Shown here: positions 13,282 through 31,445 of the stretch, in pieces
Layout of the letters: each line of letters begins with the position of its first letter
Position numbering within the stretch: position 1 is the first letter of the stretch
Assembly: GCA_950059285.1 (NCBI GenBank)
Contig: CATLTV010000040.1
Coordinates: forward strand, 1 to 33,304
DNA: 33,304 nt
Reading direction: 5' to 3'
Source: an uncultured Pseudomonadota bacterium
GTDB lineage: Bacteria; Myxococcota_A; Bradymonadia; Bradymonadales; Bradymonadaceae
The notes under the pieces: generated by a model
Told to the model about the DNA's origin: nothing
The model's database searches: none
Seen by the model: the letters and a program-made list of their open reading frames with translations, nothing else
Position numbers and translations under genes: made by a program

Positions 13282-13355
13282 GAAATCAAAAGGACAAGAA
13301 AAGGGAGCGCGGGCGACATGTCGCCCGCGCTCCCTTTTCTTGTCCTTTTGATTTC
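13282..13355. terminator. Giant bidirectional hairpin H1
   Basis: A perfect 74-bp palindrome: two 37-nt arms with no unpaired centre (centre GACATGTC). The outer arms are AAAAGG/AAGAAAAGG-rich on the left and T-rich on the right, with a core of GGGAGCGCGGGCGAC. It starts 10 nt after the sthA stop and its last base is part of the P450 stop codon on the other strand, so it can serve as terminator for both convergent genes. Confidence 0.8.
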
Positions 13356-14746
13356 TAACGAGGGACAGGAGTGACCATGACGGGTTTGGTGGGGCGCAGC
13401 GTGATAAATGGGTCAAACTGGAGTGGGGATGGGTCATTGAGTGTAAAACGCCATGATTTTGCGAGGGTTGCGATCACAAGGATCGCTTCCATGGAGGCAA
13501 AGTGATTGCCAATACATATGCGGGGACCACCTCCAAAGGGGAGGTATCCATGTCGTGGGATGTTCTTCTCGAAGTTTTCATCAAGCCAGCGTTCCGGTTT
13601 AAATGTAAGGGGATCGTCAAAGATTTCAGGTTTGCGATGCATGATGTACGGGCTTGAGACGAGGATACTATCTTTGGGGACATGCCATGGGCCAAGTTGA
13701 ACGTCCTGTATTGCTTGACGACCAAGGATCCATGCGGGGGGATAGAGGCGCAAGGTTTCCTTGAATATGGCCTGTGTGTAGGGGAGGGGTGCGGGTGACT
13801 CAAGTCCAAGGGGTTGATCCTCTGGCAAGGCAGCGAGTTCCTTGTGGAGTTTTTCTTCGATGGTGGGGTTTCTCGCTAATGCGTCAAAAGCGTAAGTGAT
13901 TGCAAGTGCTGTTGTTTCGTGGCCTGCGAGAAACATGGTCAGTGCTTCATCACGTAGTTGGGTTTCATCAAGGTGGTGTCCGTTTTGGTGTGTTGCCTCA
14001 ATGAGTTTCCATAACAGGTCATCACCAGGTGGGAGTTTTGAGCGCTCTTTGATCATGTCACGAATGATGCGGTCGAGGTCTTTTTTTGCTTCATGAAAAC
14101 GCGCTCGTTTAAGGGATGGGACCTGTCTGGGGATAAAGTACCAGAGCGAGTTTTTCTCGGCGTCATAGTGTTCCATGGCGACCTCAATGGCGTGACCGAC
14201 GTCTTTGGCTTGAGGGTGATAGGTGAGACCAAAGAGCGTTTCCACGACAATATGAAGTGTGAGGTCCATCATTTCTTGCCAGAGGTCGAAGGGCTGATGA
14301 GCCTTGATTGTGTTGGTGGTGTGATGTGCGGCGCTGGCCATGCGCTCGGCGTAGCTTGCGATCTGGGTGCGCTTGAGCTTGGGGGCTGCAAGTTTGCGGT
14401 GTTGTCTCCAGGAGCTGCCCTCATTGAGGAGGAGTCCATTGCCGAGAAGTTCCTTGAGATCGCGTGCAAACGGATCCTTGATCATGACGGAATTGTGTTC
14501 AAGGAGCACTTGTTGGAGGAGTTCGGGGTCATGGATGAGATAGAACTTGAGGCGTCCTAGTCGAAAGTAGACGCAGTCACCATGGGTATGCTGAAGGTTT
14601 TGCATGAATTGAATCTGGTCTTGCATCAGGTGGCGGATATGCAATGGCATGAGTGAGGATGGAGGGCCAGGAGGTTTTGCAGGGATATTGAGGCGTGCTT
14701 TTGCACGACGCTCAAGAGCGTTGAGTGTGTCTAAGGCGAGTGTCAT
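13355..14746 (-). CDS. Cytochrome P450
   Basis: 463 residues. Family landmarks are in order: a Pro-rich hinge (PAKPPGPP) near the start, I-helix AGHETTA (~272), ExxR as KETLR (~327), and the haem-Cys loop FGGGPRICIG (~400) followed by NHFA. It is a soluble-type monooxygenase that needs external electron donors; no ferredoxin or reductase gene is nearby. I chose ATG at 14744-14746 because AGGAGG lies six bases upstream; an upstream in-frame ATG would add ten residues without an RBS. It is divergent from a TetR gene (189-bp gap), a common regulator-target arrangement. Substrate is unknown; fatty acid or terpenoid hydroxylation is possible. Confidence 0.9.
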   Translation of the reverse strand: MTLALDTLNALERRAKARLNIPAKPPGPPSSLMPLHIRHLMQDQIQFMQNLQHTHGDCVYFRLGRLKFYLIHDPELLQQVLLEHNSVMIKDPFARDLKELLGNGLLLNEGSSWRQHRKLAAPKLKRTQIASYAERMASAAHHTTNTIKAHQPFDLWQEMMDLTLHIVVETLFGLTYHPQAKDVGHAIEVAMEHYDAEKNSLWYFIPRQVPSLKRARFHEAKKDLDRIIRDMIKERSKLPPGDDLLWKLIEATHQNGHHLDETQLRDEALTMFLAGHETTALAITYAFDALARNPTIEEKLHKELAALPEDQPLGLESPAPLPYTQAIFKETLRLYPPAWILGRQAIQDVQLGPWHVPKDSILVSSPYIMHRKPEIFDDPLTFKPERWLDENFEKNIPRHGYLPFGGGPRICIGNHFASMEAILVIATLAKSWRFTLNDPSPLQFDPFITLRPTKPVMVTPVPR

Positions 14747-14888
14747 GAGGAGCCTCCTGGTATATAATGTTTTCAAGGGGTTAGCGTATCCATGGTCTTA
14801 TTTTGAGCGCTTGTGTGTGATTTTCAACTCGCATTGGTTTGTTTTGTAAGGTTTTGATTTTAAATGTGTTTTTTGTTGTTTGTTTGGT

Positions 14889-14910
14889 AATGTGAGTTTT
14901 TACTCATATT
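14889..14910. promoter_or_regulatory. Candidate TetR operator
   Basis: Dyad AAT-G-TGAGT / ACTCA-T-ATT around a TTTT centre, with 8 of 9 arm positions paired. It lies 25 bp upstream of the TetR start, inside the P450-TetR intergenic gap, where an autoregulatory operator would be expected. Function is inferred from position only. Confidence 0.35.
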
Positions 14911-14935
14911 TTTGAATGGAAAAAGAGAGGTATGA

Positions 14936-15580
14936 ATGCTTGGAGAGGGTGTGGATGAGGCGAGGTATTTACTCAAGGAGCCAAAGCAGCAGCGTTCCAG
15001 GGATACGATAGATGCGTTGGTGGAGGCCACGGAGCTGATTCTTGTGGAAGAGGGGTGGGCAGGCGTGAACACCAACAGAATTGCAGAGCGTGCGGGGGTG
15101 AGTATTGGCACGCTGTATCAGTATTTTGAGAACAAGGAGGCGCTTGTTGGCTTGATGGTGGAGAGGTTTGTTGCAGGGCAGCAGGTGGCGCTGGGGGCAT
15201 CTTTGTGGGAGCGTCTCAGTGAGGATATGGATCTTGAGCGGATGATTTTTGAGTTGGTGAGGGCCTTGATGTGGACACATCAGGAGCGTCCCGAGTTAAG
15301 CAGGGCGTTGCTGATGCATGTGCCTGCATCGGGTCAGCTTGGGGTGGTGAACGTGTGGACGGAGCGTTCACGTGTATTGATTGAAGAAGCGTTGAGGTTC
15401 AAGTCGGGAGAGCTGCGCGAGGGGATGGAGGAGGGGGCACCTCTTGTGGCGCAGGTATTGATCACGGCGGTGCACGGCGTGATTTTTTCGACCTTGATGA
15501 GTGATTGGGAACGCCTCAAGGACGAGGCGTTCATGGATGAGTTGGCAAGGTTGGTGTGGCGATATATTCGCCCTGATTAG
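14936..15580 (+). CDS. TetR-family transcriptional regulator
   Basis: 214 residues. The N-terminal DNA-binding domain is typical: 'RSRDTIDALVEATELILVEEGW' helix 1 and the HTH 'NTNRIAERAGVSIGTLYQYFENKEAL' region at about 45-70 (shown in part). The C-terminal helical ligand-binding part is not assignable. ATG at 14936 has AGAGAGG five bases upstream. It is divergent from the P450 gene, so repression of that gene and itself is likely (inference from layout). Its stop codon overlaps the stop of the convergent hydrolase gene by four bases (TTAG), leaving no room for a terminator between them. Confidence 0.88.
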   Translation: MLGEGVDEARYLLKEPKQQRSRDTIDALVEATELILVEEGWAGVNTNRIAERAGVSIGTLYQYFENKEALVGLMVERFVAGQQVALGASLWERLSEDMDLERMIFELVRALMWTHQERPELSRALLMHVPASGQLGVVNVWTERSRVLIEEALRFKSGELREGMEEGAPLVAQVLITAVHGVIFSTLMSDWERLKDEAFMDELARLVWRYIRPD

Positions 15581-15927
15581 ATCGCAGTGGTGGTGCGATA
15601 AGTGGAGTAGCCGTAGGGGCTGATCATCAAGGGTAGGTGATGATGTTCGTGTTGGTGTTGCACTTCAAATACGATGCGTACGACGGGGTAGAATGAGGGC
15701 TGGTCGCTGACCGCAAAGTAGGTGCCTGTATCAAAGGTGAGACGGTAGGTGCCACGGGCAAGGGGTTGCTCATCAGGGAGCAGTGATGTGGTGCTTCCAT
15801 CCTCGTTGGTGGTTGCACCTGTGAGATGGATCCAGTGATCGCCGTCGTGGCGCTCAAGCGCGACGGGGACACCTTCCGCAGTGGTGCCAAGGTGAGTGTC
15901 GATAACTTGTGTGCTCAGTGTGCTCAT
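15577..15927 (-). CDS. 5-hydroxyisourate hydrolase (transthyretin-like)
   Basis: 116 residues. It matches the HIUase/transthyretin-related family, which hydrolyses 5-hydroxyisourate in urate breakdown: N-terminal 'LSTQVIDTHLGTTAEGVPV', central 'GTYRLTFDTGTYF', 'SFYPVVRIVFEV' and 'HHHLPLMISPYGYSTYR'. The family normally ends in YRGS, where the last residues help form the active site; here the end is YRTTTAI. ATG at 15925-15927 has GAGGA five bases upstream, which fixes the start (the frame stays open further upstream). No uricase or OHCU decarboxylase gene is nearby, so its pathway context is unclear. Confidence 0.85.
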   Translation of the reverse strand: MSTLSTQVIDTHLGTTAEGVPVALERHDGDHWIHLTGATTNEDGSTTSLLPDEQPLARGTYRLTFDTGTYFAVSDQPSFYPVVRIVFEVQHQHEHHHLPLMISPYGYSTYRTTTAI

Positions 15928-16092
15928 GCGTGTCCTCGTGTGTTGGAGGGGTTGACGTGTATGTTCCAGAATGAGGTGGAGCATAAGCCTTTGCAGATGT
16001 GCTGTAAAGGGAGACAAGCCTTGGGGCACGGTGGTGAAAGCGATGCAGCGACTTGAGCTGCGGTGGTGGCTTGTCCTGTGGTGTGACAAGTT

Positions 16093-17397
16093 TTATTGGC
16101 TGAGATTGACGACCTCATGTGACTGGAATGACAGGATGAGTTTTGAGGGGTGGATGGTGAGGGTGTAATTATGTGCTGCTGCGGTGAGTTGGAGTTGCAT
16201 CAGGCGTGTGGCGATGGGATCGGAGCGATAGATTGCATGCGCCAGATGTTCGGGTGTGCTTGAGATCACGAGCCAGTGAGATTGGTCTGTCGTAGGGATG
16301 GTGAATGTGAGGTTGATGATATCAAGATCAACGCTGACCTCCAGAGGTATGCTTTGGTGTTCGGGGAGTTTGAGGTAGGAGTGCATGCATGAGAGCAGCA
16401 TTTGGAAGAGTTGTTGAAGAACAGCCCGATAAGTAACGACCTTGATTGTGGGTGGGACATCCTGTGCATAGGAGATATGAATGCGCGGGAGTCTGTTTTT
16501 TGTGGCGAGTATAAGTTGGTTGTTAAGGTTGATGGTACGGGCAGGTTCCGTGGGGATGACGGGGAGTGTGAGGGCGTGTTGTACGGCCTGAGCGGGGAAC
16601 GGTTCTCTGGCGAGCAAGGTTTGAATGGTTTGGATGTAATGGACGTAGGTGTTTTGGTTTTGTGCTTGAAGCTCCATGGTGTTGATGGACTTGTAGTGTT
16701 CGGTGACTTCAATGATGAAGAGCATTCCACCCTGAACATGTCCATCTTCGTTGATAAGAGGGACAACAGCAGACTTGTACATTCCACCGCGTTGGCCATG
16801 GATGATGGCTTCATGTGCTTCGCCATCAAGAGCGCGCTGATAGATGGGTTCAAGCGTGTCTGCAGCTTGTGGGATGGCCTCGTGGAGGGTTTTTCCCAGA
16901 AAGTCTTCGCTCTTGTAGCCAGCCTTGCTCAGGGCAGGGCCATCACATACGAGGTAGCGCATATCGCGATCAAAGAGGATGACAGCGCTATTGGGGAGGT
17001 TGTGAGCCAGGAGGCGATAGGTTTCAAGCTCGTGTTTAATCGACGAGAATTTTTCCAGAACATCCACTTCTTCACGTAAGGAGAGGATGACATAGTCGCT
17101 CTGGTTAGAGCGTCTGACTGCAATGTTAAATGCTCTGAATGGTTCAGGTTTGTAGCGCATCATGGTGCGTTTTTCTTCACTGGGTCTGAGTCGGATAAGA
17201 AGGCGAGTAATGTTATCTGCTTCAGGGTTAATGGCATCAAAAAGGTCGCTGAGCAGAGGGTGCTTCACGATGTCGATGCTGAGCGTAGTTTGAGCGCGCA
17301 AGTTGGCGTGAATAATTTCGCCATGAGGGCTTGCGAGTATGAGTGCTTCGGGGACCTCTTCAAGCCATGTGGCCAGTGTTTGTTGTTGCGTAATCAC
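16093..17397 (-). CDS. PAS-domain sensor with degenerate kinase-like C-terminus
   Basis: 434 residues. Residues ~8-110 and ~135-235 look like two PAS domains ('EALILASPHGEIIHANLRAQ'; 'SAVILFDRDMRYLVCDGPAL', then 'LFIIEVTEHYKS'). A short coiled region ('QNTYVHYIQTIQTLLARE') stands where a dimerisation helix would be. The last ~150 residues resemble an HATPase fold by position ('YRAVLQQLFQMLLSCMHSYLKL' for the N-box) but the N-box Asn and both Gly boxes are missing. It probably senses a small molecule or redox state but cannot phosphorylate in the usual way. GTG start at 17397 has AAAGGA seven bases upstream. No response regulator is adjacent. Confidence 0.65.
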   Translation of the reverse strand: MITQQQTLATWLEEVPEALILASPHGEIIHANLRAQTTLSIDIVKHPLLSDLFDAINPEADNITRLLIRLRPSEEKRTMMRYKPEPFRAFNIAVRRSNQSDYVILSLREEVDVLEKFSSIKHELETYRLLAHNLPNSAVILFDRDMRYLVCDGPALSKAGYKSEDFLGKTLHEAIPQAADTLEPIYQRALDGEAHEAIIHGQRGGMYKSAVVPLINEDGHVQGGMLFIIEVTEHYKSINTMELQAQNQNTYVHYIQTIQTLLAREPFPAQAVQHALTLPVIPTEPARTINLNNQLILATKNRLPRIHISYAQDVPPTIKVVTYRAVLQQLFQMLLSCMHSYLKLPEHQSIPLEVSVDLDIINLTFTIPTTDQSHWLVISSTPEHLAHAIYRSDPIATRLMQLQLTAAAHNYTLTIHPSKLILSFQSHEVVNLSQ

Positions 17398-18122: not shown

Positions 18123-18209
18123 ATGGTCACGGTTGTGATCAGAGCGCCGACCTTAAACACACCGGGGCATGTCGTTGTACCTGGTGAATTTTATGAAAGA
18201 GAGAAGACT

Positions 18210-18719: not shown

Positions 18720-18729
18720 GATGTAAAAC

Positions 18730-18807
18730 ACATCATCAAGCAGAACAAAAACATGCGGCGATTGCCCAGAGGCAATCGCCGCATGTTTTTGTTCTGCTTG
18801 ATGATGT
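18730..18807. terminator. Giant hairpin H2 (slyD side)
   Basis: Perfect 37-bp stem with loop CAGA, 10 nt after the slyD stop. Core GCGGCGATTGCC, outer arm ACAAAAACAT on the left and ATGTTTTTGT on the right, so the T-tract is inside the extended stem. The core is inverted relative to H3 next to it. Confidence 0.8.
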
Positions 18808-18814
18808 TGAATAA

Positions 18815-18864
18815 GCAAAAAGAAGGCGGCGATTGCCTCTGGGCAATCGCCGCCTTCTTTTTGC
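18815..18864. terminator. Giant hairpin H3 (TSP3 gene side)
   Basis: Perfect 23-bp stem with loop TCTG, two bases from the stop codon of the minus-strand TSP3 gene. It carries the same core as H2 with the loop in the opposite orientation. GCAAAAAGAAG/CTTCTTTTTGC form the outer arms, giving T-runs in both directions. Confidence 0.8.
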
Positions 18865-18866
18865 GT

Positions 18867-21800
18867 TTAGTCGCGTTTACGACGGAAGATAAGTGAGCCA
18901 AGCATTGCCATCAGCGCCATCAGCCATGATCCAGGAATCTCCTGAGCAGGTGACTGGTGGCATCCGCCAGCAAGCAGGTATCCATCAAAGTCATCATCAC
19001 CACCATCGGCTGCGATTGCAGTGAAGTTGATGGTGTCTGTGGTCACAGAACGATCGCCATCCTTGACCTCGGCGCGCACATCGTGGTCGCCAACGTCAAC
19101 AGTAATGTCGAATGTCCAGTCACCGTTTGTGTCGGCGGTGGTGGTGCCCACGGACTCACCGTCGACAAAGATCTCAACCTCGGCATCAGGTGTTGCAGTA
19201 CCACTTACGGTCACATCGCCAGCAGTGACTTCATCGCCATCAACAGGTGAAGAAATCGCCACATCAAGCGCCACAAGTGTGTCGTCCACGGTGACAGTCA
19301 CGCTGTCAGTCACATCACCAACCTTGGCTTCGACAGTGATGTCACCCGCCATTTGACCCGTGATGTCGAAGGTCCAGTCGCCGTTTGCGTCGGCTGTGGT
19401 GGTGCCCACAGACTCGCCATCCACAAGGATTTCAATCTCAGCATCAGGGTTGGTTGTACCGCTGACCTGGAAGTCGGCAGCGACAGTGGAGCCATCCGCA
19501 GGAGATGTAATGTCAACGACATCCTGCACAACACCCTCTTCCACAGTCAGAGAGACGGTATCGGTGTCGTCGTCAGTTTTGGCCTCGACGGTGATGTCAC
19601 CAGGCTCAACACCTGTCACATCAAAGGTCCAGTCACCATTCTCATCGGCGATTGCGGTGCCAACGACCTCACCATTGATAAGAATCTCAACCTCAGAACC
19701 AGGCGCTGCTGAGCCACTGATGGTGAAGCTTGTGCCCACGGTGGCACCATCAGCAGGTGATGTGATCGCAAAGTCAGCCATCATGCCAGGCGTGGTGGGG
19801 TCGAGGTAATCAGGCGTGCCATCATCGCCAGTGTCCACCGCATCATCGGGGTTGCCATCACCATTTGGATCGGCATTTTCGTCAATGGTCAAGAAGCCAT
19901 CACCATCGTCATCATTATCAAGGTAGTCAGGCACGCCGTTGGCGTCTGTATCTTGCAATGTGGCGGGAGCTGCATCACCAAGCTCGAATGTGGTAAGGAG
20001 GCCATCGTTGTCATCATCTTCATCGAGCGCATCAATGGTGCCATCCATGTCGGTGTCGACAGGTGCGTTAATGTCGTCGCCAAGCTCAAAGAGATCATCA
20101 AGGCCGTCGCCATCGCTGTCAGGCTCGGATGGGTTTGTGCCAAGCATACGCTCTTGCTGATTGGTCAGGCCGTCCATATCGGTGTCACCTGTAGGACAGG
20201 CCAACGCGTTGGGATCGGGATCACAAGGATCAAGAGGTGCGGGGTCATCTCTGTTGATGACACCGTCGCCGTCAGTATCGCCCTCTTCACAGGCGACACT
20301 GGTATCATCAGGATCACAAGGATCGAGGAAGTTGGGAACACCATCTGCGTTGGTGTCGTCGTTGGTGGGGTCGCCATCACCGTCCACATCTTCGTCAGCA
20401 GTGTTTACGCCATCGCCGTCATCATCAGGATCAAGGTAGTTTGGTACATCATCGCCAAGCGCCTCGTCGGAGTTGTCGTTGGTAGGATCACCATCGCCAT
20501 CGATGTCTTCATCTTTGGTGAGGATGCCATCGTTGTCATCATCGTCATCGAGGTAGTTTGGCGTACCGTCACCGTCGGTGTCATCGTTGTCGTAGTCTCC
20601 ATCGCCGTCGAGATCCTCGTCGCCGTTAGGAATACCATCGCCATCAAGATCACCGTTGGGGCCGTCGTTATCGTCGGCATCAAGGTAATCAGGGATCATG
20701 TCGCCATCGGTGTCATCGTTGTTTGGATCACCGTCATTGTTGAGATCCTCATCAAGCGTGGAGATGCCATCGCCGTCATCGTCAGGATCAAGCGCGTTGA
20801 TGAGCATGTCGCCATCAGTGTTCAGACCACTTGCAGCATCTTCGCCCGCAACACACACGTTCATCACCGCGATTGTGCCATCACACACGCCGTCGCCGTC
20901 GGTGTCAGCGTTGTCAGGAGATGTGCCCAGTGTGATTTCCTGGCTGTTTGAGAGGCCATCGCCATCAGTGTCACCAGAATCACAGTTTGCGTTGTTGGGA
21001 TCAGGATCGCATGGATCTGTGGGGTCAGGATCGGTGCTGTTTGGCACGCCATCATCATCGGGATCGCCTGTAGGACAGACGAGCGCATCGCTGTCAGGTG
21101 TGCATGGATCAAGATAATCAGGTGTGCCGCTTGCGTTGACGTCATCGTTGGTGGGGTCACCGTCCATGTTCGCGTCTTCCGCTGTCGTCAGCACGCCGTC
21201 GCCATCATCATCGCTGTCAAGCGCATCAATGAGCGCGTCGCCATCTGTGTTTTGACCACTCGCAGCATTTTCACCGGCAACACACACACCTGCCACGGCA
21301 ATTGCGCCATCACAAAGGCCATCGCCGTCTGAGTCAGCGTTGTCAGCGAGTGTGCCGAGCATCGTCTCCACGCTGTTGATGATGCCATCGCCGTCAGTGT
21401 CACCAAGAGGCCCATCGTTGTCATTGAAATCAAGGTAGTTCGGGATCATGTCACCATCGGTGTCATCGTTGGTGGGATCGCCGTCCATGTTGATGTCTTC
21501 GTCCACGGTCAAAATGCCATCGCCGTCGTCGTCAGGATCAAGCGCATCGATCAACATGTCGCCATCAGTGTTCAGGGCATTTGCAGCGTCTTCGCCCGCA
21601 ACACAGACACCCATCACAGCGATCACACCATCACACACACCATCACCATCGGTGTCCGCGTTATCAGATTGTGTGCCAATGGTTGTTTCATCGCCGTTTG
21701 TGATGCCGTCACCGTCAGTGTCACCAAGCGGGCCATCGTTGTCGTTGACATCAAGGTAGTTTGGTGTGCCGTCGCCGTCGGTGTCATCGTTGGTGGGGTC

Positions 21801-23333
21801 ACCATCGTTGTTGACATCTTCATCAAGTGTGGAGATGCCATCGCCGTCGTCATCAGTATCAAGCGCATCGATCAGCATGTCGCCATCAGTGTTCAGGCCG
21901 CTTGCAGCGTCTTCGCCCGCAACACAAACACCTGCCACGTCAGCGGTGCCATCACACACGCCATCACCATCGGTATCAGCGTTGTCATGAGATGTGCCGA
22001 GGGTGTTTTCGTCCGTGTTGATGATGCCATCGCCATCAAGGTCGCCGATGGGGCCATCGCTATCCTCGGTGTCTCTGTAGTCAGGGACACCGTCACCATC
22101 GCTATCTGGTGCCACGGAGTCGCAAGCTCCTTCAACGGCGTCTGGTGTGCCATCGTTATCGCGGTCTTCACGCATGGCAGGTCGAAGCATGACACCCCAG
22201 TCGTTGAGCGCGTTGCCGCCAATGGCCTGGACTGTGACTGACTTTGAACTGGTAAATGCGAGCGCCTGTCCACCAGGTACGACGTACACATCATCCGCAT
22301 TAAGTATAACGGGTGTGGCCTCAACGCCTGTAAGTACGGTGTTATCGTCTGCAGCAAAGATGTAAGCGCCCTGTGTGGCGGAGTCGAGCACGAAGTTTTT
22401 GCCCTCATCGCCAAGGTTGACGGTGACATCATCACCCATGTTTCTGATGGTGTTGCCTGCTTCAGTGTCACCCGCCCACACCGAGAGTGGTTGATCGGAG
22501 TCAAGCTTGTAATAGTTTTGTCCAAGACCCGTTACGATAGCGCTGCTACCTGCGGGCACTGAGAGCGCCATGGGCGAGTTTGTGGAGAGGTTTGTAAGCA
22601 GGATGTTGGCGTCGGCTGTGCCCTGGTTGAATATGGAGACAGCGCCCGTGGTCCAGCTTTCTGTAAAGAAGTAGAAGCTGTTGCCTGCGTTATTGTTGCA
22701 GTCCACCGCATCGGTAGCATCTGCTGGGATGGGGGGAACCTGTGTGGCACCGTTTCCTACGCTGCGGTTACCTACAGAGATGGTTCCTGTGGAGACGAGG
22801 TGAAAGGTGTCGGTGTCATTGATTGCTGTAGGGAGCCAGAAGTCATCTTCAGAGAGCTGAGGGCTTGTTTCAACCAGCGTACCCATGTTGTCAAAGACTT
22901 GCACGACGGCATCTTCAGTGGCGAAGACGACGGTTGAACCCGCGATGCGTCGAATGCGGAAGTCCCTGCCGTAGTAGCGCTTTCCGTCTTCTGTAGGCGG
23001 ATAAAAGAAGTCGCCTGAGAAGTTACAACAGTCATGGTGAAGGAGCACCATCATGGGGTCGCTCACATCGACCTTGAAGTCGCTTACAGTAAGCAGGTCG
23101 ATGGAGATCTGTTCGCCCTGGGTAAGTGTTCCTGATGAGACGCTTAGTCCTGTGGTGAGGTCAATGATATCGTAAGTGGATGAGGTCTCAAAGCCCACAA
23201 GTTGAAGCTGACCATCTGTGGTGGGGTTGTGTCCATAGTAGGTCTCCTCGCCAGCAAAAGCGTTGAGGGGAGTTCCAAACAAAGCGAGGCCAAGAAGGGC
23301 TTGTAATGTCTTGTTTGACTTGGGTTTATTCAT
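18867..23333 (-). CDS. Large surface protein: TSP3 repeats, Ig-like domains, MYXO-CTERM-like end
   Basis: 1488 residues. A signal peptide (1-27, ending AFA) is followed by a beta-rich domain to ~390 that resembles IgGFc-binding-type N-terminal domains of Myxococcota (tentative). Residues ~390-1180 are Asp-rich calcium-binding thrombospondin type 3 repeats (DTDGDG, DPDDDGDG), partly in 107-residue higher-order units. Three ~88-residue Ig-like domains follow (~1180-1440; 'ITSPADG', 'GDWTFD' landmarks). The end has AGGC, a hydrophobic stretch and FRRKRD, the layout of MYXO-CTERM sorting signals, so surface attachment is likely. ATG at 23331-23333 gives the proper signal peptide; the frame extends 13 codons upstream. 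Likely role: adhesion or outer coat. Confidence 0.88.
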   Translation of the reverse strand: MNKPKSNKTLQALLGLALFGTPLNAFAGEETYYGHNPTTDGQLQLVGFETSSTYDIIDLTTGLSVSSGTLTQGEQISIDLLTVSDFKVDVSDPMMVLLHHDCCNFSGDFFYPPTEDGKRYYGRDFRIRRIAGSTVVFATEDAVVQVFDNMGTLVETSPQLSEDDFWLPTAINDTDTFHLVSTGTISVGNRSVGNGATQVPPIPADATDAVDCNNNAGNSFYFFTESWTTGAVSIFNQGTADANILLTNLSTNSPMALSVPAGSSAIVTGLGQNYYKLDSDQPLSVWAGDTEAGNTIRNMGDDVTVNLGDEGKNFVLDSATQGAYIFAADDNTVLTGVEATPVILNADDVYVVPGGQALAFTSSKSVTVQAIGGNALNDWGVMLRPAMREDRDNDGTPDAVEGACDSVAPDSDGDGVPDYRDTEDSDGPIGDLDGDGIINTDENTLGTSHDNADTDGDGVCDGTADVAGVCVAGEDAASGLNTDGDMLIDALDTDDDGDGISTLDEDVNNDGDPTNDDTDGDGTPNYLDVNDNDGPLGDTDGDGITNGDETTIGTQSDNADTDGDGVCDGVIAVMGVCVAGEDAANALNTDGDMLIDALDPDDDGDGILTVDEDINMDGDPTNDDTDGDMIPNYLDFNDNDGPLGDTDGDGIINSVETMLGTLADNADSDGDGLCDGAIAVAGVCVAGENAASGQNTDGDALIDALDSDDDGDGVLTTAEDANMDGDPTNDDVNASGTPDYLDPCTPDSDALVCPTGDPDDDGVPNSTDPDPTDPCDPDPNNANCDSGDTDGDGLSNSQEITLGTSPDNADTDGDGVCDGTIAVMNVCVAGEDAASGLNTDGDMLINALDPDDDGDGISTLDEDLNNDGDPNNDDTDGDMIPDYLDADDNDGPNGDLDGDGIPNGDEDLDGDGDYDNDDTDGDGTPNYLDDDDDNDGILTKDEDIDGDGDPTNDNSDEALGDDVPNYLDPDDDGDGVNTADEDVDGDGDPTNDDTNADGVPNFLDPCDPDDTSVACEEGDTDGDGVINRDDPAPLDPCDPDPNALACPTGDTDMDGLTNQQERMLGTNPSEPDSDGDGLDDLFELGDDINAPVDTDMDGTIDALDEDDDNDGLLTTFELGDAAPATLQDTDANGVPDYLDNDDDGDGFLTIDENADPNGDGNPDDAVDTGDDGTPDYLDPTTPGMMADFAITSPADGATVGTSFTISGSAAPGSEVEILINGEVVGTAIADENGDWTFDVTGVEPGDITVEAKTDDDTDTVSLTVEEGVVQDVVDITSPADGSTVAADFQVSGTTNPDAEIEILVDGESVGTTTADANGDWTFDITGQMAGDITVEAKVGDVTDSVTVTVDDTLVALDVAISSPVDGDEVTAGDVTVSGTATPDAEVEIFVDGESVGTTTADTNGDWTFDITVDVGDHDVRAEVKDGDRSVTTDTINFTAIAADGGDDDFDGYLLAGGCHQSPAQEIPGSWLMALMAMLGSLIFRRKRD
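21100..22065 (-). repeat. Three tandem 107-codon super-repeats in the TSP3 gene
   Basis: Units of about 321 bp, each starting at a 'DGP.GD.DGDGI' segment (complement near 22051, 21731 and 21410), containing one Cys pair ('VCDG...GVCVAGE'), 'NTDGDMLIDALD' and '.DGDPTNDDTDGD..PNYLD'. A fourth, more diverged unit follows an insertion (about 20640-20960). Reading frame is kept, so unit number could change by recombination. Confidence 0.75.
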
Positions 23334-23471
23334 GCTAGTGTATCCTGTAGTGAAAGGATGAAGGTACATCAAGGCGTGTTCAAAACACTCCTGAGCAGTA
23401 GTGAGAACAGTGCATCTGTAGCACCTGTGGCATAATTTTCAAACATGTGTTATGCGATTTTTGCGTCAAAT

Positions 23472-24294: not shown

Positions 24295-24354
24295 CACACA
24301 AAAAAAGGAAGAAGGGGCCTGGATTGTCAGGCGTCTTCTTCCTTTTTTTGTGTG
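24295..24354. terminator. Giant hairpin H4, upstream of truC
   Basis: 27-nt arms with one mismatch and one G-T pair, 6-nt centre. Outer arms CACACAAAAAAAGGAAGAAG and its complement give seven A/T in a row on both sides. It follows the minus-strand P460-like lipoprotein gene by 36 bp and sits 8 bp before the truC ATG, so it can end the upstream transcript and may also lie in the truC leader. Confidence 0.75.
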
Positions 24355-24390: not shown

Positions 24391-24846
24391 TTAAAATGCG
24401 CAGAGGTTGTTTTTGCAGGGTGGGGCAGCGTGGCAGCTTGAACAGAAGTTGTCGTCCACGGTGAATTCGACGCTTCCATCAGCATAGAGACGTTGCCATG
24501 AGTAGCCTGTTGTGCTTGCTTCTTTCTTTTCCATGACGGTCATGGAAGTGAGGTCTTCACACTTGTCATCGGAGAACTGTTCTTTGACGGCGACAGCGCC
24601 TTCTGGGGCCTCGACGTTCTCATCATCGTAAGAAGGTTTGATTTCTGGGCTCAACCAGATTTTTACGTAATCACCACCATGTTGAGCGCTCTTGGTGCAG
24701 TCATACTTTGAGAGCTTGGTGTAGCTTGTCTGGTAGTCTTCAGGAAAGAGGCTGTTGCTATCATAGGTGTACTCCACGCTGCTGTTTCCACAGGCGACAG
24801 AGAAGAGGAGCATGAGGGCGGCAGGGATGAGCGAGAGCTTTTTCAT
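24391..24846 (-). CDS. Small lipoprotein with C-terminal CxxCH, cytochrome P460-like
   Basis: 151 residues. The signal peptide ends in SVAC (Cys19). Near the end is CSSCH (135-139), the c-type haem attachment motif, then 'NNLCAF'. The placement of CxxCH about 15 residues from an aromatic end, after a 'Y.WQRLYADGSVEF' strand and an 'EGAVAVKEQF...TVMEKK' strand, resembles the cytochrome P460/c'-beta family, whose members bind haem c for electron transfer or small-molecule reactions. Haem would be attached outside the cytoplasm. Start ATG at 24844-24846 gives the signal peptide; AAAGG is about ten bases upstream. Family call is by pattern only. Confidence 0.6.
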   Translation of the reverse strand: MKKLSLIPAALMLLFSVACGNSSVEYTYDSNSLFPEDYQTSYTKLSKYDCTKSAQHGGDYVKIWLSPEIKPSYDDENVEAPEGAVAVKEQFSDDKCEDLTSMTVMEKKEASTTGYSWQRLYADGSVEFTVDDNFCSSCHAAPPCKNNLCAF

Positions 24847-25182
24847 GTAAATCATACCTTTGTATTGTGTGTTTTTGGCGAGCCACAAAAGTTTATCTTT
24901 GTGTACCGCGATGTTGTGTGCGCTGGCGTCAGACAAACCTCTCCTGTTGTGTGTTGCAAAGAGGAGTTTGTGTTGTGTGTTAACCAGTTCTTGTGTCGTT
25001 GGCATGGTTACTATGTCTTGAGTGGTGGGTTGGTTTCAAGGCACGACGAAGTTTTTGTAGACTTTTTTATGAAAATGATGTGAATATAATGTGGAAGGGG
25101 GGATACGGGTTGTAAATAACGGTACATCTATAAAGATGATTGTCGATTGTATCTTGTGAATAAATAAAGGAAAGAACGTACG
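24847..25182. promoter_or_regulatory. Divergent intergenic region with candidate promoter
   Basis: 336 bp between the minus-strand P460-like gene and the plus-strand acyltransferase gene. A perfect TATAAT at 25085-25090 faces the acyltransferase, with only a weak -35 candidate upstream; the leader would be about 85 nt. Nothing else convincing was seen. Confidence 0.4.
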
Positions 25183-25878
25183 ATGGAGATCAAGATTGAA
25201 GAAGGTTTGGAGCGCCGCAAGGGGTTTGCGTACCTGTGTGGTTGGCTGTGGATGAAAGTGGCAGGATGGAAGTTTGATGCGTCAAACTTGCCTGAATACA
25301 AGAAGTTCGTGTTGATCGCCAATCCTCATACATCAAACTGGGATCTTCCGTTTATGTTGGGCTGTTCCTATCTTGGTGGGCTTCGTGTCTCATGGCTTGG
25401 CAAGCACACGCTCTTCAGGGGCATTGGTAAGCCTTTCTTCACCTGGTATGGCGGTGTGCCTGTGGATCGTACAGCGCCCAAAGGGATGGTGCATCAGGTG
25501 GCAGAGGTCATCAAGAGCCGCGACAAGATAGCGCTCGCCATTCCACCTGCGGGGACACGTCGCAAGACCGACGGCTGGAAGACTGGATTTTATTACATTG
25601 CTCTGGAGTCAGGTGTTCCCATTATCCCGACCTACCTTGATTGGGGCACCAAACGTGCAGGTTTTGGCCCTGCGTTCTTCCCTACAGGAGACATTGAGGC
25701 CGACTTTGAGGTGTTCAAGAAGTTCTATGAGGGGATGAAGGGCAAGTACCCAGAGATGCAAAGCCCCGTTAAAATCAGGACCAAGAGGACATATGAGGTC
25801 GACGAGGTTGACCTTGATTCTGGTGGCGTGCAGATCTTCAAGGATGCTGTGAACTCCATGCGCGGCAAGGATCAGTAA
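25183..25878 (+). CDS. Lysophospholipid acyltransferase family protein (PlsC-like)
   Basis: 231 residues, short-type member. The catalytic HX4D is HTSNWD (His49-Asp54) after 'FVLIANP'. 'YGGVPVDRT' supplies the substrate-binding Arg of motif II. Motif III, usually [F/P]PEGTR, reads PPAGTRRK (122-128), with Ala123 in place of Glu; 'WKTGFYYIALESGVPIIPTYLDW' style motif IV follows. It likely transfers an acyl chain to a lysophospholipid or glycerol phosphate at the inner membrane. ATG at 25183 has GGAAAGAA upstream. It stands alone; no lipid genes are nearby. Confidence 0.8.
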   Translation: MEIKIEEGLERRKGFAYLCGWLWMKVAGWKFDASNLPEYKKFVLIANPHTSNWDLPFMLGCSYLGGLRVSWLGKHTLFRGIGKPFFTWYGGVPVDRTAPKGMVHQVAEVIKSRDKIALAIPPAGTRRKTDGWKTGFYYIALESGVPIIPTYLDWGTKRAGFGPAFFPTGDIEADFEVFKKFYEGMKGKYPEMQSPVKIRTKRTYEVDEVDLDSGGVQIFKDAVNSMRGKDQ

Positions 25879-25914
25879 GGATGATGTGACAATCCTATCG
25901 GTCGGCGATGCCAA

Positions 25915-25987
25915 CACAAGGAAGAGGCCCATCGAGGGGCGAGTTTTGCTGCGCAAAACTCGCCCCTCGATGGGCCTCTTCCTTGTG
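25915..25987. terminator. Giant hairpin H5
   Basis: Perfect 35-bp stem with 3-nt loop TGC, 36 bp after the acyltransferase stop and 8 bp from the stop of the minus-strand small ORF. Unlike the others it has no good T-tract at either end (CTTCCTTGTG), so termination might need another factor or its job may be transcript end protection. Confidence 0.6.
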
Positions 25988-25995
25988 AGGTGTTA

Positions 25996-26178
25996 TCAAT
26001 TATCAATGTACTTACAGCAGTTAAAACAATTGTGTACGGGAGCTGACTGGTCTGAAGGAGCGAGAGCTGTGTCGTCGGTTTGATTTGGAGCAAAACTTTT
26101 GTCGGTTGGTGTAAGTTTCTGGACAGTCAGTCTTATTCTGAAGGTGTGGTTGGTCTTTCTGAGATTTTGCTTGTCCAA
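25996..26178 (-). CDS. Possible small Cys-rich peptide
   Basis: 60 residues, TTG start, no visible RBS. The first part is basic and amphipathic ('FRIRLTVQKLTP'), the middle is rich in Ser, Thr, Asp and Pro, and the end is CFNCCKYIDN, three Cys within five residues. This leader/core look recalls peptide natural-product precursors, but I recognise no family. Three AGA codons are unlike neighbours, which mostly use CGT/CGC. It sits next to giant hairpin H5 and is divergent from a dioxygenase gene 109 bp away. It may be spurious. Confidence 0.3.
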   Translation of the reverse strand: MDKQNLRKTNHTFRIRLTVQKLTPTDKSFAPNQTDDTALAPSDQSAPVHNCFNCCKYIDN

Positions 26179-26287
26179 AGGGGGCGTTCAGTGGATGATG
26201 CGTGCGCACAGCGAGTGGTTTTCACAAAGGTGCTGTGCATACATTGTTTTATGACACCTCAAACCCTGCAAGGAGATGGAGGATTCC

Positions 26288-27397
26288 ATGTCTCAAGAGC
26301 CCCAAGTTCCAGTTGTTGACCTTCGCGATCTGGCGAGCCCTCGCCAGGAGGATCAAGCCCGAGCATCAGAAGCATTGATGTTAGGACTTGGTCATTATGG
26401 CCTGGTGTACATTCGTAACCACGGCATTGACGCCAAGGAGTTGGATACTTTCTATGACTCATTCCGCGATGTGTGCGACCGCGATATGTCTGAGAAGCAG
26501 ACATGGAGCAAGCCCGACATCTGGTTCCAGCGTGGATGGACTCCACCCAACACAGAGAAAGCTGTGGTCGCTGGTGGACAGCCTGACTTCAAGGAGTGTT
26601 TCTTTGTGGCTCCCGAGCCTCTGGATCCTGTGTGCAAGCTCCAGTATCCCGAAATTTACGCCGAGAACATCTGGCCTGAAGATGCGCCTGAATTTCAGAG
26701 CACCTATCTGAGCATTGGTCACCAGCTTCACGAGATTGGTCTGGCGTTGTTGCGTGGTTGTGCGCGTGCGCTTGAACTTGAGCCTTACATCTTTGAAGCT
26801 GCTGTGTGGCAAGGTCCTCACGTCACACGTGCGCTGCGTTACTTGAACCTCTCCACCGAGCAAGTGGATCAGGATATCCTCTGGGGCGAGGAGCACACTG
26901 ACTTTAACTTGCTGACATTGCTTCCTGGTGGTCGCTTCATCGATAAGAATGGTGAGTACTGTGGCCGTCCTGATGAGAAGAGCGGGTTGTACTTGCGTAC
27001 GCGTTCCACAGAGGAGCACCCCAATGGTCAGATGGTGCCAGGGCGTCCTCCTGAAGGATGTATCGTGGCTCAGGTGGGTCAGCAGCTTGAGATCTTGACG
27101 GGTGGCGTGTTCACAGCAACACCTCACGTGATCAAGGCACCAGCAAGCGTGGAATACTCTCGCGTCTCCATGGCACACTTCATCCACTTGCATTCGCATG
27201 AGATTCTCTTCCCCATGCCAACCTGTCAGACCGATGAGTCCATTCAGGCATACAGCCCGCCCGTGTTGGCTGGTACGTATGGTACAAAGACCATGGTCGA
27301 CATTGGTCTGGCGCCTTCGCATGCTATCGAACAGCTTGGTTATCGCCAGTATGATCGTCTTGGTTCAATGCGCGCCGAGGAAGATTCATCCAAGTAA
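26288..27397 (+). CDS. Fe(II)/2-oxoglutarate-type dioxygenase, isopenicillin N synthase family
   Basis: 369 residues. N-terminal 'VPVVDLRDL' and 'LGHYGLVYIRNHGI' are the DIOX_N-type opening. The iron ligands fit HxD...H: His203 and Asp205 (EEHTDFN) and His280 (TATPHVIKAP). Arg292-Val-Ser294 (YSRVS) is the RxS that binds 2-oxoglutarate or substrate carboxylate. ATG at 26288 has GGAGG five bases upstream; the ATG at 26276 would sit directly on AAGGAG. Substrate is unknown: the family includes oxygenases of small metabolites and peptides as well as ring-forming oxidases. Codon use looks like that of well-expressed genes. A hairpin terminator with T6 follows. Confidence 0.88.
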   Translation: MSQEPQVPVVDLRDLASPRQEDQARASEALMLGLGHYGLVYIRNHGIDAKELDTFYDSFRDVCDRDMSEKQTWSKPDIWFQRGWTPPNTEKAVVAGGQPDFKECFFVAPEPLDPVCKLQYPEIYAENIWPEDAPEFQSTYLSIGHQLHEIGLALLRGCARALELEPYIFEAAVWQGPHVTRALRYLNLSTEQVDQDILWGEEHTDFNLLTLLPGGRFIDKNGEYCGRPDEKSGLYLRTRSTEEHPNGQMVPGRPPEGCIVAQVGQQLEILTGGVFTATPHVIKAPASVEYSRVSMAHFIHLHSHEILFPMPTCQTDESIQAYSPPVLAGTYGTKTMVDIGLAPSHAIEQLGYRQYDRLGSMRAEEDSSK

Positions 27398-27465
27398 GTT
27401 TGAGCATCCCTGATATCGACGGGAAGAATTAAGCTTACAAAGTTGTTTATATCCGTGTATGAAAG

Positions 27466-27518
27466 CAGCAAGGAGCACGGCTTTTTATAAAAAGCCGTGC
27501 TCCTTGCTGTAGTTTTTT
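27466..27518 (+). terminator. Giant hairpin H6 after dioxygenase gene
   Basis: A perfect 44-bp palindrome (27466-27509, 22-nt arms, A/T-rich centre) followed by GTAG and a run of six T. It is 68 bp after the dioxygenase stop and has a clear plus-strand terminator form. Confidence 0.8.
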
Positions 27519-27626
27519 AAGGACATATAGCAAAGGCAACGCTGATGATGCTTTCTGTAAGTGTTTGATGTTAAAGTGCTTTTTCTGTGTGTTTTGAATA
27601 GTTCTTATGACAAGGATAATGAGACC

Positions 27627-28490
27627 ATGAGTGAGAAAGATCTGGCTGTGCGCGCCATGACCAATGACGGATCCTTCCGTGTGATTGCCATCCGTACGAC
27701 AGACACTGTGCGTGAGGCATTGCAAAAACAAGAGACCCTCTACCCACATGATGCCGAGGTGTTTACCGAGCTTCTGACAGGTGCTGTGCTTGTGCGTCAG
27801 ACCATGGCTCCCCAGCACCGCGTGCAGATTATTTTAAAGGAAGACAAGGCGTCCTCACACCAGATGGTCGCGGACTCATTTCCTGAAGGTTTGACACGTG
27901 GTGTGGTGCAGGGGATCGATGTGGATAACCGCTTCTCCCATGGTTCTCATAACCTCTTGCAGGTGATGCGCGTGCTGTTCAACAACGAGCTTCAGCAGGG
28001 CATCGTTCACACCCCCGAGATGGGTGGTGTGTCGCAAGCGCTGACCGATTATATGCTTCAGTCCGAGCAGGTTGCTTCGGCGATTGATGTGGCCACGTTC
28101 CTTGATGCCAATAACAACGTCGTGAGCGCAGGTGGTTTTATTGTACAGATGCTTCCCGAGGCAAATCAGGACACCATCAACGCCATGTTGCAACGCCTTG
28201 AGAAGCGTCAGCCTCTGTTTACTGTCATCAGTCAGGAGGGCATGAGTCCCAAGGAGATCCTCGCCGACCTGATGGGTGACTTGGAGTACACTTTGCTTGG
28301 TGATGAGCCTGTTTTCTATGGCTGCACCTGCTCCGAGATCAAGCTTGTCTCTGCGATGGCGACACTTGGCCATGATGAGATCCAGCGCATCATTAGTGAT
28401 GGTGAAGTGATGGATGTGAAGTGCGATTACTGCAAAACCAATTACGCCATCGGTCCAGAGCAGCTCAAGCCATTGCTTGAGACGCACTGA
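27627..28490 (+). CDS. hslO: Redox-regulated chaperone Hsp33
   Basis: 287 residues, normal length. Hsp33 is a cytoplasmic holdase switched on by oxidative unfolding of a C-terminal zinc module. The four zinc-binding Cys are present: Cys233 and Cys235 (GCTCSEIK) and Cys266 and Cys269 (KCDYCKTNY). The N-terminal part has 'AVRAMTNDGSFRVIAIRTTD' and the middle 'GGFIVQMLPEA', both typical. ATG at 27627 matches the family start; an earlier in-frame start at 27561 would add a non-homologous hydrophobic stretch. RBS AAGGA is rather far upstream. Hairpin H7 follows after 15 bp. Confidence 0.93.
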   Translation: MSEKDLAVRAMTNDGSFRVIAIRTTDTVREALQKQETLYPHDAEVFTELLTGAVLVRQTMAPQHRVQIILKEDKASSHQMVADSFPEGLTRGVVQGIDVDNRFSHGSHNLLQVMRVLFNNELQQGIVHTPEMGGVSQALTDYMLQSEQVASAIDVATFLDANNNVVSAGGFIVQMLPEANQDTINAMLQRLEKRQPLFTVISQEGMSPKEILADLMGDLEYTLLGDEPVFYGCTCSEIKLVSAMATLGHDEIQRIISDGEVMDVKCDYCKTNYAIGPEQLKPLLETH

Positions 28491-28505
28491 TAAGCGCCAG
28501 AAAAA

Positions 28506-28565
28506 CGCGTAAAAAAGGAGGGGCGGCGACTGGTTTACCAGTCGCCGCCCCTCCTTTTTTACGCG
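28506..28565. terminator. Giant hairpin H7 after hslO
   Basis: Perfect 29-bp stem with a 2-nt centre (TT). Core GGAGGGGCGGCGACTGGT, outer arm CGCGTAAAAAA and its complement, giving six T on the plus strand. It starts 15 bp after the hslO stop; the next gene is in the same direction, so two-way use is not needed here. Confidence 0.8.
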
Positions 28566-28674
28566 CACCTTGAGGCAAGGAACCTGCATCTGATGTGATG
28601 AGTATGGATTTGTGTTGCGACTGCAACCATGGAGTACATGTTTTTATCACATAATATAAGTTTCTGGAGTGATT

Positions 28675-29595
28675 ATGCTTTTTAATAAGACGATGTGGAG
28701 TTCTATCGTAGGTGCCATGTTGCTGTTGTGTCTTGTGGCAAGTGATGTGTTTGCGCACGAGACGGCGACCTGGTCAGATATTGCGGATGAGTCACAAGCA
28801 GCGAGTGTGGAGTCTGAGGATGATTTTAAGCTTACGATTGCCAGTGAGTTTGGCTTGCTCAGCGTGATGTACAACAAGATCCAGCAGGGTCAGAATGGTA
28901 CATATTTTGATTATGTGAAGGATGGAGGTCAGGAGTTATTTACGCCTTTTTTGAGAGCGAGTGGTGAGCTCAAGTGGAAGGGGCGTCACACGGCGGTGTT
29001 GTTGTATCAGCCCATCAATCTGGAGACGCGTGTGCGATTCAGGGAGGATGTGGTCGTGGATGACCGTGTGTTCTCCGAGGGACAGATGATGGACCTGAGG
29101 TATGGCTTTGATTTCTTCAGGGCATCTTACATGTTTGATGTGCTCGCGCGGGAAGATATGGAGCTGTCGCTTGGTGGTGGATTCCAGATGCGTATTGCTG
29201 CAATTGAGTTTGTGCCTGTGGATGGGAGTGATGGTCGTCTCTCAAAAGATCTTGGGCCAGTGCCTTTGCTCAAGTTGCGATACAGGCACAACCTGGAGAA
29301 GGGCTGGTTCTATGGCACCGAGATTGATGGGTTTTATGCCAACATCAAGGTGTTAAATGGAGACATTGAGAACGAGGTCACAGGTGCGATTTACGACGCC
29401 AGCCTGAGAGGTGGTAAGACGCTTGGTGATGGGCTTGATGCGTTTGTGAACGTGCGTTTTCTTGGCGGCGGCGGTGTGGGCACAAGTCAGGATGATGCGC
29501 GTGATAATCCTGGTGATGGGTATGTGAAGAACTGGTTACATGCAGCGACGATATCGCTTGGCTTTTATTTTGAACCAGCAGCGTTGGTGAGATAA
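28675..29595 (+). CDS. Probable outer-membrane beta-barrel protein
   Basis: 306 residues. A signal peptide (1-27, ending VFA) is followed by alternating strands such as 'GELKWKGRHTAVLLYQPI', 'MELSLGGGFQMRIAAIEF', 'LLKLRYRHNLEKGWFYGTEIDG' and 'ATISLGFYFEP', the pattern of a beta-barrel in the outer membrane. It lacks a C-terminal Phe, though GFYF lies near the end. ATG at 28675 has GGAG five bases upstream. No family recognised; it appears monocistronic between two giant hairpins. Confidence 0.65.
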   Translation: MLFNKTMWSSIVGAMLLLCLVASDVFAHETATWSDIADESQAASVESEDDFKLTIASEFGLLSVMYNKIQQGQNGTYFDYVKDGGQELFTPFLRASGELKWKGRHTAVLLYQPINLETRVRFREDVVVDDRVFSEGQMMDLRYGFDFFRASYMFDVLAREDMELSLGGGFQMRIAAIEFVPVDGSDGRLSKDLGPVPLLKLRYRHNLEKGWFYGTEIDGFYANIKVLNGDIENEVTGAIYDASLRGGKTLGDGLDAFVNVRFLGGGGVGTSQDDARDNPGDGYVKNWLHAATISLGFYFEPAALVR

Positions 29596-29599
29596 AGCG

Positions 29600-29661
29600 A
29601 AAAGAAGACGTCAACAGGCCCGCATTCGGTCACGAATGCGGGCCTGTTGACGTCTTCTTTT
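29600..29661. terminator. Giant bidirectional hairpin H8
   Basis: Perfect 29-bp stem with loop GTCA, between convergent genes: 4 bp from the barrel gene stop and 7 bp from the stop of the minus-strand helical-repeat gene. Outer arms AAAAGAAGACG and the complement supply T-rich ends in both directions. Confidence 0.8.
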
Positions 29662-29668
29662 ATGTGTC

Positions 29669-31234
29669 TCAGGCCGTGTGTTTTTCGATGCGGCTTATCG
29701 CTGCATCGATGGCACCTTGTACTGTGCTATCTTTTTCATTTTCAAGGCGATTTTTAAGTGCCTCGAGATGTGGTGCTGCGCTCTCGATGGGCATACGAAA
29801 GAGTGCCTCGGCAGCGTACTGACGGGTTGCTTTTTTGCGTGCCTCCAGCAGCGCTGCGACCGCTGAGGCATCCTCGGTTTTGGGCCAGTAGGGAGATGCT
29901 TTGATCGCGGCGTCACGCACCTTCTTTGACTTGTGTGTAATTGCGATGGGCAGCATTGAGGGTGAGCAAAGTTGGACCGCGAAGTAGTGTTCAAATATTG
30001 AAGTTGTCATGGGGCCATTGGCTCCAAGCAAGGCATGTTCAAGCACTTCTTGTTCATAGCTTTCGGGGATGAGGTTAAAGTGTTTCTTGATGTGCCACTG
30101 TTCGTAACTGTCTGAGAGTGATGGGTTTCTTGCGAGGTGGTGAAGGTAAATGCGCCACATCTCTTCATGATGTGTTGAGGTGTTCTTATCTGTGAGCAAG
30201 GTCTTAAATACAGCCCAGCGGTGAACGAAGCTTGTGTTCTTTTCGAACAATTCGAGCGTGGCGTGGAACCAGAGCATTGGATCGGAAGCGACCTCTTTTT
30301 TAAGCCATGTGTTCCAGACCTTTTTACTCTTTTGATACAGGTCATCGATCCTGTCGCAGACCTTTTCTTTTGCTGTGTCATCAAGTGACTCGAAGGAGTT
30401 TGGCGATTGTTCTGGAGTGTCTGTGGGGTCGCCAAGAATGGCGAGCTGTGTTTTGCACCATTCGCGTACGGCTTTCTTTCTTGCGGAGGCTCCTCGTTCA
30501 AGGACAGCGCGACCTTTTTCACCGCGAGCATCGACTCCAAATTGAGCCCGTTGTCGCATGCCTTTGAGTCGGTGGCCTAACAATTCAAGATAGAGGTCAT
30601 CATCATCCTGGGAGCAGCGCTGATTGGCGAGCATCACATGTAAGGTCTGGAGTCCATCGGAGTCATCACCATCGGCGCGTTTTTTTGCGATGATGGGAAT
30701 GACACGGTCGACGTGTCCCTCGACGAGAGGTGCAAAGTTCTTGGGCAACAAGTCATCTGCAATCAGGTTGATGGCATGTGCAAACGCGGCTTCATCCTGG
30801 ATTTCCAGTGCGAGCAATGGTGTGAGTTGTCGCGCAAAGAAGTGGTTGGCAATAACCTGCTCGATGGCTTCTACGATGCCCTTGTCGCCCGTTTTCTTGA
30901 CCAGAGAGATGATGGTGTCTCGTGGGATGAACGAGTTGGCGGGTGGAAGAGTTTTGAGGTGGGGTATGAACCAGTCGGGCAGGGGAGTGTCTTTTGTGCG
31001 GGCGAGGATGGCGATGGCCGCGATAATTTGCTGAATGGCGTAGCGTGACTTGTCTGTTTTGAGTTTGGGGTCTTGGGTGGGTTCCCATGACTGAAACGCC
31101 TCAAGCAGCGCGGTAGGTTTGTGGGCCGAGAGTCGCTTGTTTATTGTGTCAAAGGTGTTGTTGGAGATGGTGTGGTTAGCGATTGATGTGCAAAGTTCGT
31201 CAATGAGTAGTTCGGGGGAGAGGGATTTGGCCAT
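29669..31234 (-). CDS. Helical-repeat (HEAT-like) protein of unknown function
   Basis: 521 residues, nearly all alpha-helical, with no signal peptide or membrane segment. Repeats of paired helices are seen, e.g. 'KSKKVRDAAIKASPYWPKTEDASAVAALLEARKKATRQYAAEALFRM' (landmarks KVRDAAIKASP and RQYAAEALFRMP), typical of HEAT-like scaffolds; a charged Lys/Arg-rich stretch lies in the middle. ATG at 31232-31234 has AGGA about ten bases upstream. A minus-strand TTGCAA / TAGATT pair with 17-bp spacing lies at 31316-31288. Role unknown; probably protein-protein binding in the cytoplasm. Confidence 0.65.
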   Translation of the reverse strand: MAKSLSPELLIDELCTSIANHTISNNTFDTINKRLSAHKPTALLEAFQSWEPTQDPKLKTDKSRYAIQQIIAAIAILARTKDTPLPDWFIPHLKTLPPANSFIPRDTIISLVKKTGDKGIVEAIEQVIANHFFARQLTPLLALEIQDEAAFAHAINLIADDLLPKNFAPLVEGHVDRVIPIIAKKRADGDDSDGLQTLHVMLANQRCSQDDDDLYLELLGHRLKGMRQRAQFGVDARGEKGRAVLERGASARKKAVREWCKTQLAILGDPTDTPEQSPNSFESLDDTAKEKVCDRIDDLYQKSKKVWNTWLKKEVASDPMLWFHATLELFEKNTSFVHRWAVFKTLLTDKNTSTHHEEMWRIYLHHLARNPSLSDSYEQWHIKKHFNLIPESYEQEVLEHALLGANGPMTTSIFEHYFAVQLCSPSMLPIAITHKSKKVRDAAIKASPYWPKTEDASAVAALLEARKKATRQYAAEALFRMPIESAAPHLEALKNRLENEKDSTVQGAIDAAISRIEKHTA

Positions 31235-31287
31235 GGGTAAATTTTCCTGGTCAAGAGTTTAGAATTATTTTCCGACTAACAGGTTTG

Positions 31288-31316
31288 AATCTAGAGCGTA
31301 TAGATGAACTTTGCAA
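31288..31316 (-). promoter_or_regulatory. Candidate promoter of helical-repeat gene
   Basis: On the minus strand TTGCAA (31316-31311), 17-bp spacer and TAGATT (31293-31288), about 55 bp upstream of the ATG. Resembles a sigma-70-type promoter; not proven. Confidence 0.3.
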
Positions 31317-31388
31317 GGTTTATATATGATCGTTTTACGACTAAATAGTAGTGTTGTGAGTTGTGTGAGTGAGGAGAGTTTTGCCAAG

Positions 31389-31445
31389 AAGCAAAAGTGG
31401 AGCAAGGCTACTCCTGACAGGAGTAGCCTTGCTCCACTTTTGCTT
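31389..31445. terminator. Giant hairpin H9 after inositol-phosphate synthase gene
   Basis: Perfect 28-bp arms around a 1-nt centre (a few central pairs would open as loop), 23 bp after the stop of the minus-strand synthase gene. Core GGAGCAAGGCTACTCCTG with AAGCAAAAGT and complement as outer arms. Confidence 0.8.

Follow-up and report, generated by a model that had tools for sequence, protein, structure and literature searches.

The window, by which we mean the whole stretch of 33,304 nucleotides that was analysed, carries nine long hairpins at the ends of genes. An earlier note on this DNA had described nine hairpins, eight of them perfect, with stems of about 22-37 bp, and all nine were recovered at the positions it gave, and with arms of that length, by a repeat finder and a purpose-written scanner:

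13282..13355, no strand assigned: perfect palindrome with 37-bp arms and a loop of 0, between the convergent genes for a dihydrolipoamide dehydrogenase-like protein (+) and a cytochrome P450 (-)
18730..18807, no strand assigned: perfect hairpin with 37-bp arms and the 4-nt loop CAGA, in the convergent gap between the genes for an FKBP (+) and a 1501-aa protein (-)
18815..18864, no strand assigned: perfect hairpin with 23-bp arms and the 4-nt loop TCTG
24295..24354, minus strand: near-perfect hairpin with two mismatched pairs adjoining the loop, 36 nt 3′ of the stop of gene 24391-25005 (-)
25915..25987, plus strand: perfect hairpin with 35-bp arms and a C(TGC)G triloop, 36 nt past the acyltransferase gene 25183-25878 (+)
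27466..27509, plus strand: perfect palindrome with 22-bp arms, followed by TAGTTTTTTAA, 68 nt past the dioxygenase gene 26276-27397 (+)
28506..28565, plus strand: perfect hairpin with 29-bp arms, 15 nt past the Hsp33 gene (+)
29600..29661, no strand assigned: perfect hairpin with 29-bp arms that fills most of a 73-bp convergent gap bounded by stops at 29595 (+) and 29669 (-)
31384..31450, minus strand: hairpin with perfect 28-bp arms at 31389-31445, 23 nt past the inositol-1-phosphate synthase gene 31469-32566 (-)

The arms are perfect in eight of the nine (37, 37, 23, 35, 22, 29, 29 and 28 bp). The window has no further perfect stem of at least 10 bp with a loop of 10 or less, and because perfect stems of 10-21 bp are missing from it, the hairpins are not the tail of a continuous distribution. 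Their RNA folding energies range from -36.7 to -73.6 kcal/mol. The nearest upstream stop codon lies about 2-68 nt away, and the hairpin at 13282-13355 shares one base, the last, with the stop codon of the P450 gene, which bears out the place just after a stop codon that had been claimed for them. The neighbours at 18730..18807 and 18815..18864 have the core CGGCGATTGCC in common, with the loop inverted between them. Positions 1-13000 of the window hold no long hairpin and include leucine-rich-repeat, pentapeptide-repeat and arrestin-like genes. The 1501-aa protein (18867-23372) has bacterial Ig-like domains and a TSP3 repeat and is likely secreted or surface-exposed.

The hairpins belong to a genome-wide family. 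Sampling the same 6.65-Mb genome in 81 stretches (1.63 Mb in all) yielded 286 perfect stems of 16-41 bp, or 17.5 per 100 kb, and extrapolation from this sample gives an estimated 1,100-1,200 such hairpins (about 1,160) in the genome. Stem length has a bell-shaped distribution with a peak at 34-36 bp and none above 41 bp. Chance is excluded as the source of these stems, since dinucleotide shuffles of the 1.63 Mb contained no perfect stem longer than 13 bp. With genes taken from a simple hexamer-based caller, whose calls are approximate, a perfect stem of at least 16 bp is present in 87 of 130 convergent gaps (67%), in 149 of 642 tandem gaps (23%) and in 12 of 175 divergent gaps (7%; Fisher p about 4e-30 for convergent versus divergent). 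The scan of inverted repeats against gene ends that the earlier note had proposed therefore finds them concentrated there, and the placement of the family at the ends of transcription units extends, by this sample, from the window to the genome.

The composition of the arms is that of a terminator. From the outside inward, the 5′ arm consists of an A/G-rich segment (A about 50%, T 5-10%), a G/C core located about 8-16 bp from the loop and a T-rich stretch, and the outer 3′ arm is about 50% T and about 9% A. The layout seen first in the window, with a GC core, A-rich and T-rich outer arms folded into the stem and a tiny loop, is thus general in the sample. In single-direction cases the A-bias of the 5′ arm ends with the pairing, and the T-bias extends about four bases beyond it. 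GC-rich hairpins downstream of stop codons, with a T-rich tract after the GC stem, are characteristic of intrinsic terminators, and on these sequence features we predict that the hairpins are intrinsic (Rho-independent), largely bidirectional transcription terminators at which RNA 3′ ends would lie. The genome also has a Rho gene. Known bidirectional intrinsic terminators have A-rich upstream and T-rich downstream tracts that are able to pair (PMC1852404, PMC12207403), and the hairpins resemble them in their site past stop codons, their GC stem and their pairable A-rich and T-rich tracts, but differ in the length of the stem and in loops of mostly 0-4 nt. As had been claimed from the window, the stems far exceed those of normal terminators: the hairpins are two to three times longer than the usual kind, with stem lengths that peak at 34-36 bp, and it is this length together with the perfection of the pairing that is anomalous. 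The longest mean terminator stems in a six-genome comparison were those of Neisseria, with a mode of 11 (PMC1852404), and Escherichia coli is poor in repeats of at least 13 bp (PMC6060812). A limit of 59 nt, as applied with TransTermHP, is too low for six of the nine hairpins in the window, and terminator finders that accept short stem-loops only may overlook or misread a set of this kind. No Rfam match above the gathering score was found.

Among the genomes and loci compared, such stems are abundant in this lineage only. Four genomes of the same family (G005, G007, G008 and G010) have 0-2.5 per 100 kb versus 17.5 here, and 80 diverse bacterial loci have 0.22 per 100 kb. Among these, G005, G008 and G010 are single-contig genomes that were sampled: G010 has three such stems in 200 kb, G008 has five (none above 22 bp), and the G005 sample (L053-L055 and L227-L232) has no perfect stem longer than 10 bp in 180 kb, so that G005 seems hardly to use hairpin terminators. 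The layout recurs in G007, where stems measured 13-18 bp in an unbiased sample, with a few of 22-28 bp besides. No published report of a comparable genome was found in a literature search that covered mostly openly accessible papers. The assembly is a draft in 441 contigs, and fold-back or bubble collapse during assembly might be thought to have perfected the palindromes. This is most improbable, because the flanks are not mirrored (match 0.25), the arms differ from locus to locus, placement strongly follows gene ends, and the fragmented assembly of the relative G007 (1270 contigs) has only short stems in its unbiased sample.

The earlier view that the hairpin sequences are unrelated does not hold: about a third share modular cores, and whole hairpins have sometimes been copied behind unrelated genes. 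Ninety-nine of the 286 form one group linked by 12-mers that lie mostly near the loop, pairs sharing a 12-mer number 290 versus 11 in positional shuffles, and the core GGGGCGGC is present in 46 of the 286 left arms. One 72-nt hairpin stands behind two unrelated genes 4 kb apart (L075:4524-4595 and L075:8571-8642), and its two copies differ by a G/A change that is found in both arms. One of the genes ahead of it encodes a glycine-rich protein ending in DEDIPF, which looks like SSB. The linked cores and the repeated 72-nt hairpin would fit a dispersed mobile element family of the REP/REPIN kind, whose palindromic units spread through the genome by copying and are tolerated where they come to lie behind genes; REP/REPIN palindromes are likewise numerous and extragenic, and some have shared cores. 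We nevertheless rate such an origin as quite improbable. The hairpins have diverse arms and the composition of terminators, 147 of the 286 are singletons, the outer arms within the 12-mer-linked group are locus-specific yet perfect, and the copies inspected share neither a flank nor a target site. Neither a Y1 (RAYT) transposase nor a reverse transcriptase was detected in this genome, which is 95% complete; an origin by reverse transcriptase was rejected on the lack of an RVT_1 match here, most relatives having one. A recurrent core inside a terminator hairpin also recalls the DNA uptake sequence terminators of Neisseria and Pasteurellaceae (PMC1852404), but no single conserved 9-11-mer was found here, in a non-exhaustive search of words, and GGGGCGGC has 136 occurrences on both strands of the 1.63 Mb, compared with about 1,000 or more DNA uptake sequences per genome.

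A palindrome family of five copies (L253:1501-1577, L254:1510-1564, L255:1500-1574, L256:1500-1554 and L257:1490-1558), which share the inner sequence GTGATGCGA and lie in two tight clusters, was collected by a whole-genome search that did not require perfection. All five are perfect, with arms of 25-36 bp, and every difference compared among these within-genome paralogues is mirrored in both arms. Three copies have the loop GAAAA and two have TTTTC. Divergent gaps, which contain no gene end, hold two of the five, and these are equally perfect. The family is atypical of terminators but has the same arm behaviour, and may be a regulatory or mobile element in its own right.

Perfection is also the rule when it is not required of the terminators. 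Mismatch-tolerant stems in the 1.63-Mb sample are perfect in 284 of 355 cases, and interior mismatches, counted only where there is pairing on both sides, occupy 6 of 5,865 positions (about 0.1%) and are no commoner in the outer arm than in the core. Past the first outer mismatch, pairing drops straight to background (about 0.25). Sharp arm ends were dropped as proof of copying, because survey terminators end equally sharply. Chance pairing of A/T-rich arms was rejected on arithmetic: a random pair matches at about 36% at the observed composition, which makes 15 perfect outer pairs by chance negligible. Selection for RNA pairing should favour G·U over A·C mismatches, and in these small counts there is no such preference. 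Read in the sense of the transcript, mismatches in unidirectional stems are G·U to A·C 15:15, and near stops the ratio is 10:8 versus 7:1 in survey terminators, a difference that is not significant by itself (p = 0.19).

The loops, too, are found in both orientations. As a DNA mini-hairpin loop C(GNA)G is unusually stable, and this triloop or its complement accounts for 46 of 61 triloops here versus 3 of 21 in the survey, with related cores that make the cases not independent. Among unidirectional hairpins, 10 carry GNA on the sense strand and 12 on the antisense strand (TNC), so the triloop preference is not for the transcript. The ratio of GNA to TNC on the plus strand is 27:26, and both orientations also occur in the GAAAA/TTTTC and CAGA/TCTG loops, patterns that would look alike if copies were inserted in either orientation. 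A relation of loop orientation to GC skew was tried and was uninformative (32/53).

It might be argued that selection alone, acting on very strong terminators that work in both directions or on the protection of 3′ ends by long RNA stems, has built and kept the hairpins by point mutation. Function and selection are evident from the length peak, the location at gene ends and the U-rich outer arms, and the short run of T-richness past the stem in unidirectional cases is in keeping with this. But perfection in the outer pairs, for which termination should have no use, equals that in the core, mismatches are not biased to G·U, the GNA loops have no sense-strand preference, and members of the five-copy family away from any gene end are equally perfect, and we think it unlikely that selection is the whole explanation. 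DNA-level arm copying fits the interior perfection, the absence of a G·U preference, the mirrored changes and the two loop orientations better than selection for RNA pairing does. The earlier note had offered either strong selection or a mechanism that restores palindromes as the keeper of the pairing; on these four observations the pairing looks to be restored at the level of DNA.

We consider it probable that the hairpins are bidirectional intrinsic terminators whose arms have been lengthened and kept perfect by DNA-level arm copying, with selection retaining the useful ones. With its A-rich and T-rich outer arms, GC core and tiny loop, such a sequence would give the RNA of either strand a hairpin and a U-rich tract. 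One arm would serve as template for the other, most likely through replication template switching at hairpins (quasipalindrome correction). Such copying would erase one-sided mutations, spread a change to both arms, lengthen the pairing into local flanking sequence and invert the small loop, and selection would then retain palindromes where a terminator is useful. We infer that the copying happens as DNA is replicated and that this lineage does it at a raised rate. When templates are switched between inverted repeats, arms can become homogenised and spacers inverted (PMC8604942), and the same process is a proposed origin of RNA hairpins and of their upkeep (PMC8794818). The hairpins resemble inverted repeats homogenised in this way (PMC8604942, PMC8794818) in their perfect arms and in changes mirrored between relatives, the relatives here being within-genome paralogues, and their two loop orientations may reflect spacer inversion. 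Simple template switching does not predict the bell-shaped lengths or the limit near 41 bp, which count against it. Short palindromes within genes show no clear excess peculiar to this genome, which implies that selection also acts or that the process needs an existing hairpin. More tentatively, and with less confidence than in arm copying as such, an unusually active, perhaps enzyme-directed DNA process may extend and re-perfect palindromes to arms of up to about 41 bp, so that arm copying, in place of point mutation and selection, would continually rewrite the terminators.

Loss of SbcCD, Rho or ExoVII was considered as a cause and rejected, SbcD, Rho and XseA all being found. The RecJ match (G000:C179:12295-13539) covers positions 2-414 of 546 and is probably cut by the contig end, not a clear loss. 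No defect in repair was found, SbcD and ExoVII being present along with most or all of RecJ.

This genome bears on the question of how long perfect RNA stems originate and persist. Template switching has so far been proposed from scattered events, whereas in this single genome the perfected loci number in the hundreds and are tied to gene ends, and the pattern across one lineage suggests that one arm is repeatedly rewritten after its partner as DNA is copied; the genome would be a natural laboratory in which to measure the process. Nematomorpha mitochondria show a similar lineage-specific burst of long perfect inverted repeats, but those lie inside coding genes and have arms of up to 284 bp (PMC6649704). 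A covariance model built from 30 hairpins and run on 237 genomes of the phylum, with 22 candidates scored per genome, had matches in this genome and a few in G007, G008 and G106, and with that number of candidates the search shows rarity, not absence. The two matches in G106, a distant member of the phylum (G106:C109:14611-14704 and G106:C5:9064-9142), span 79-94 bases.
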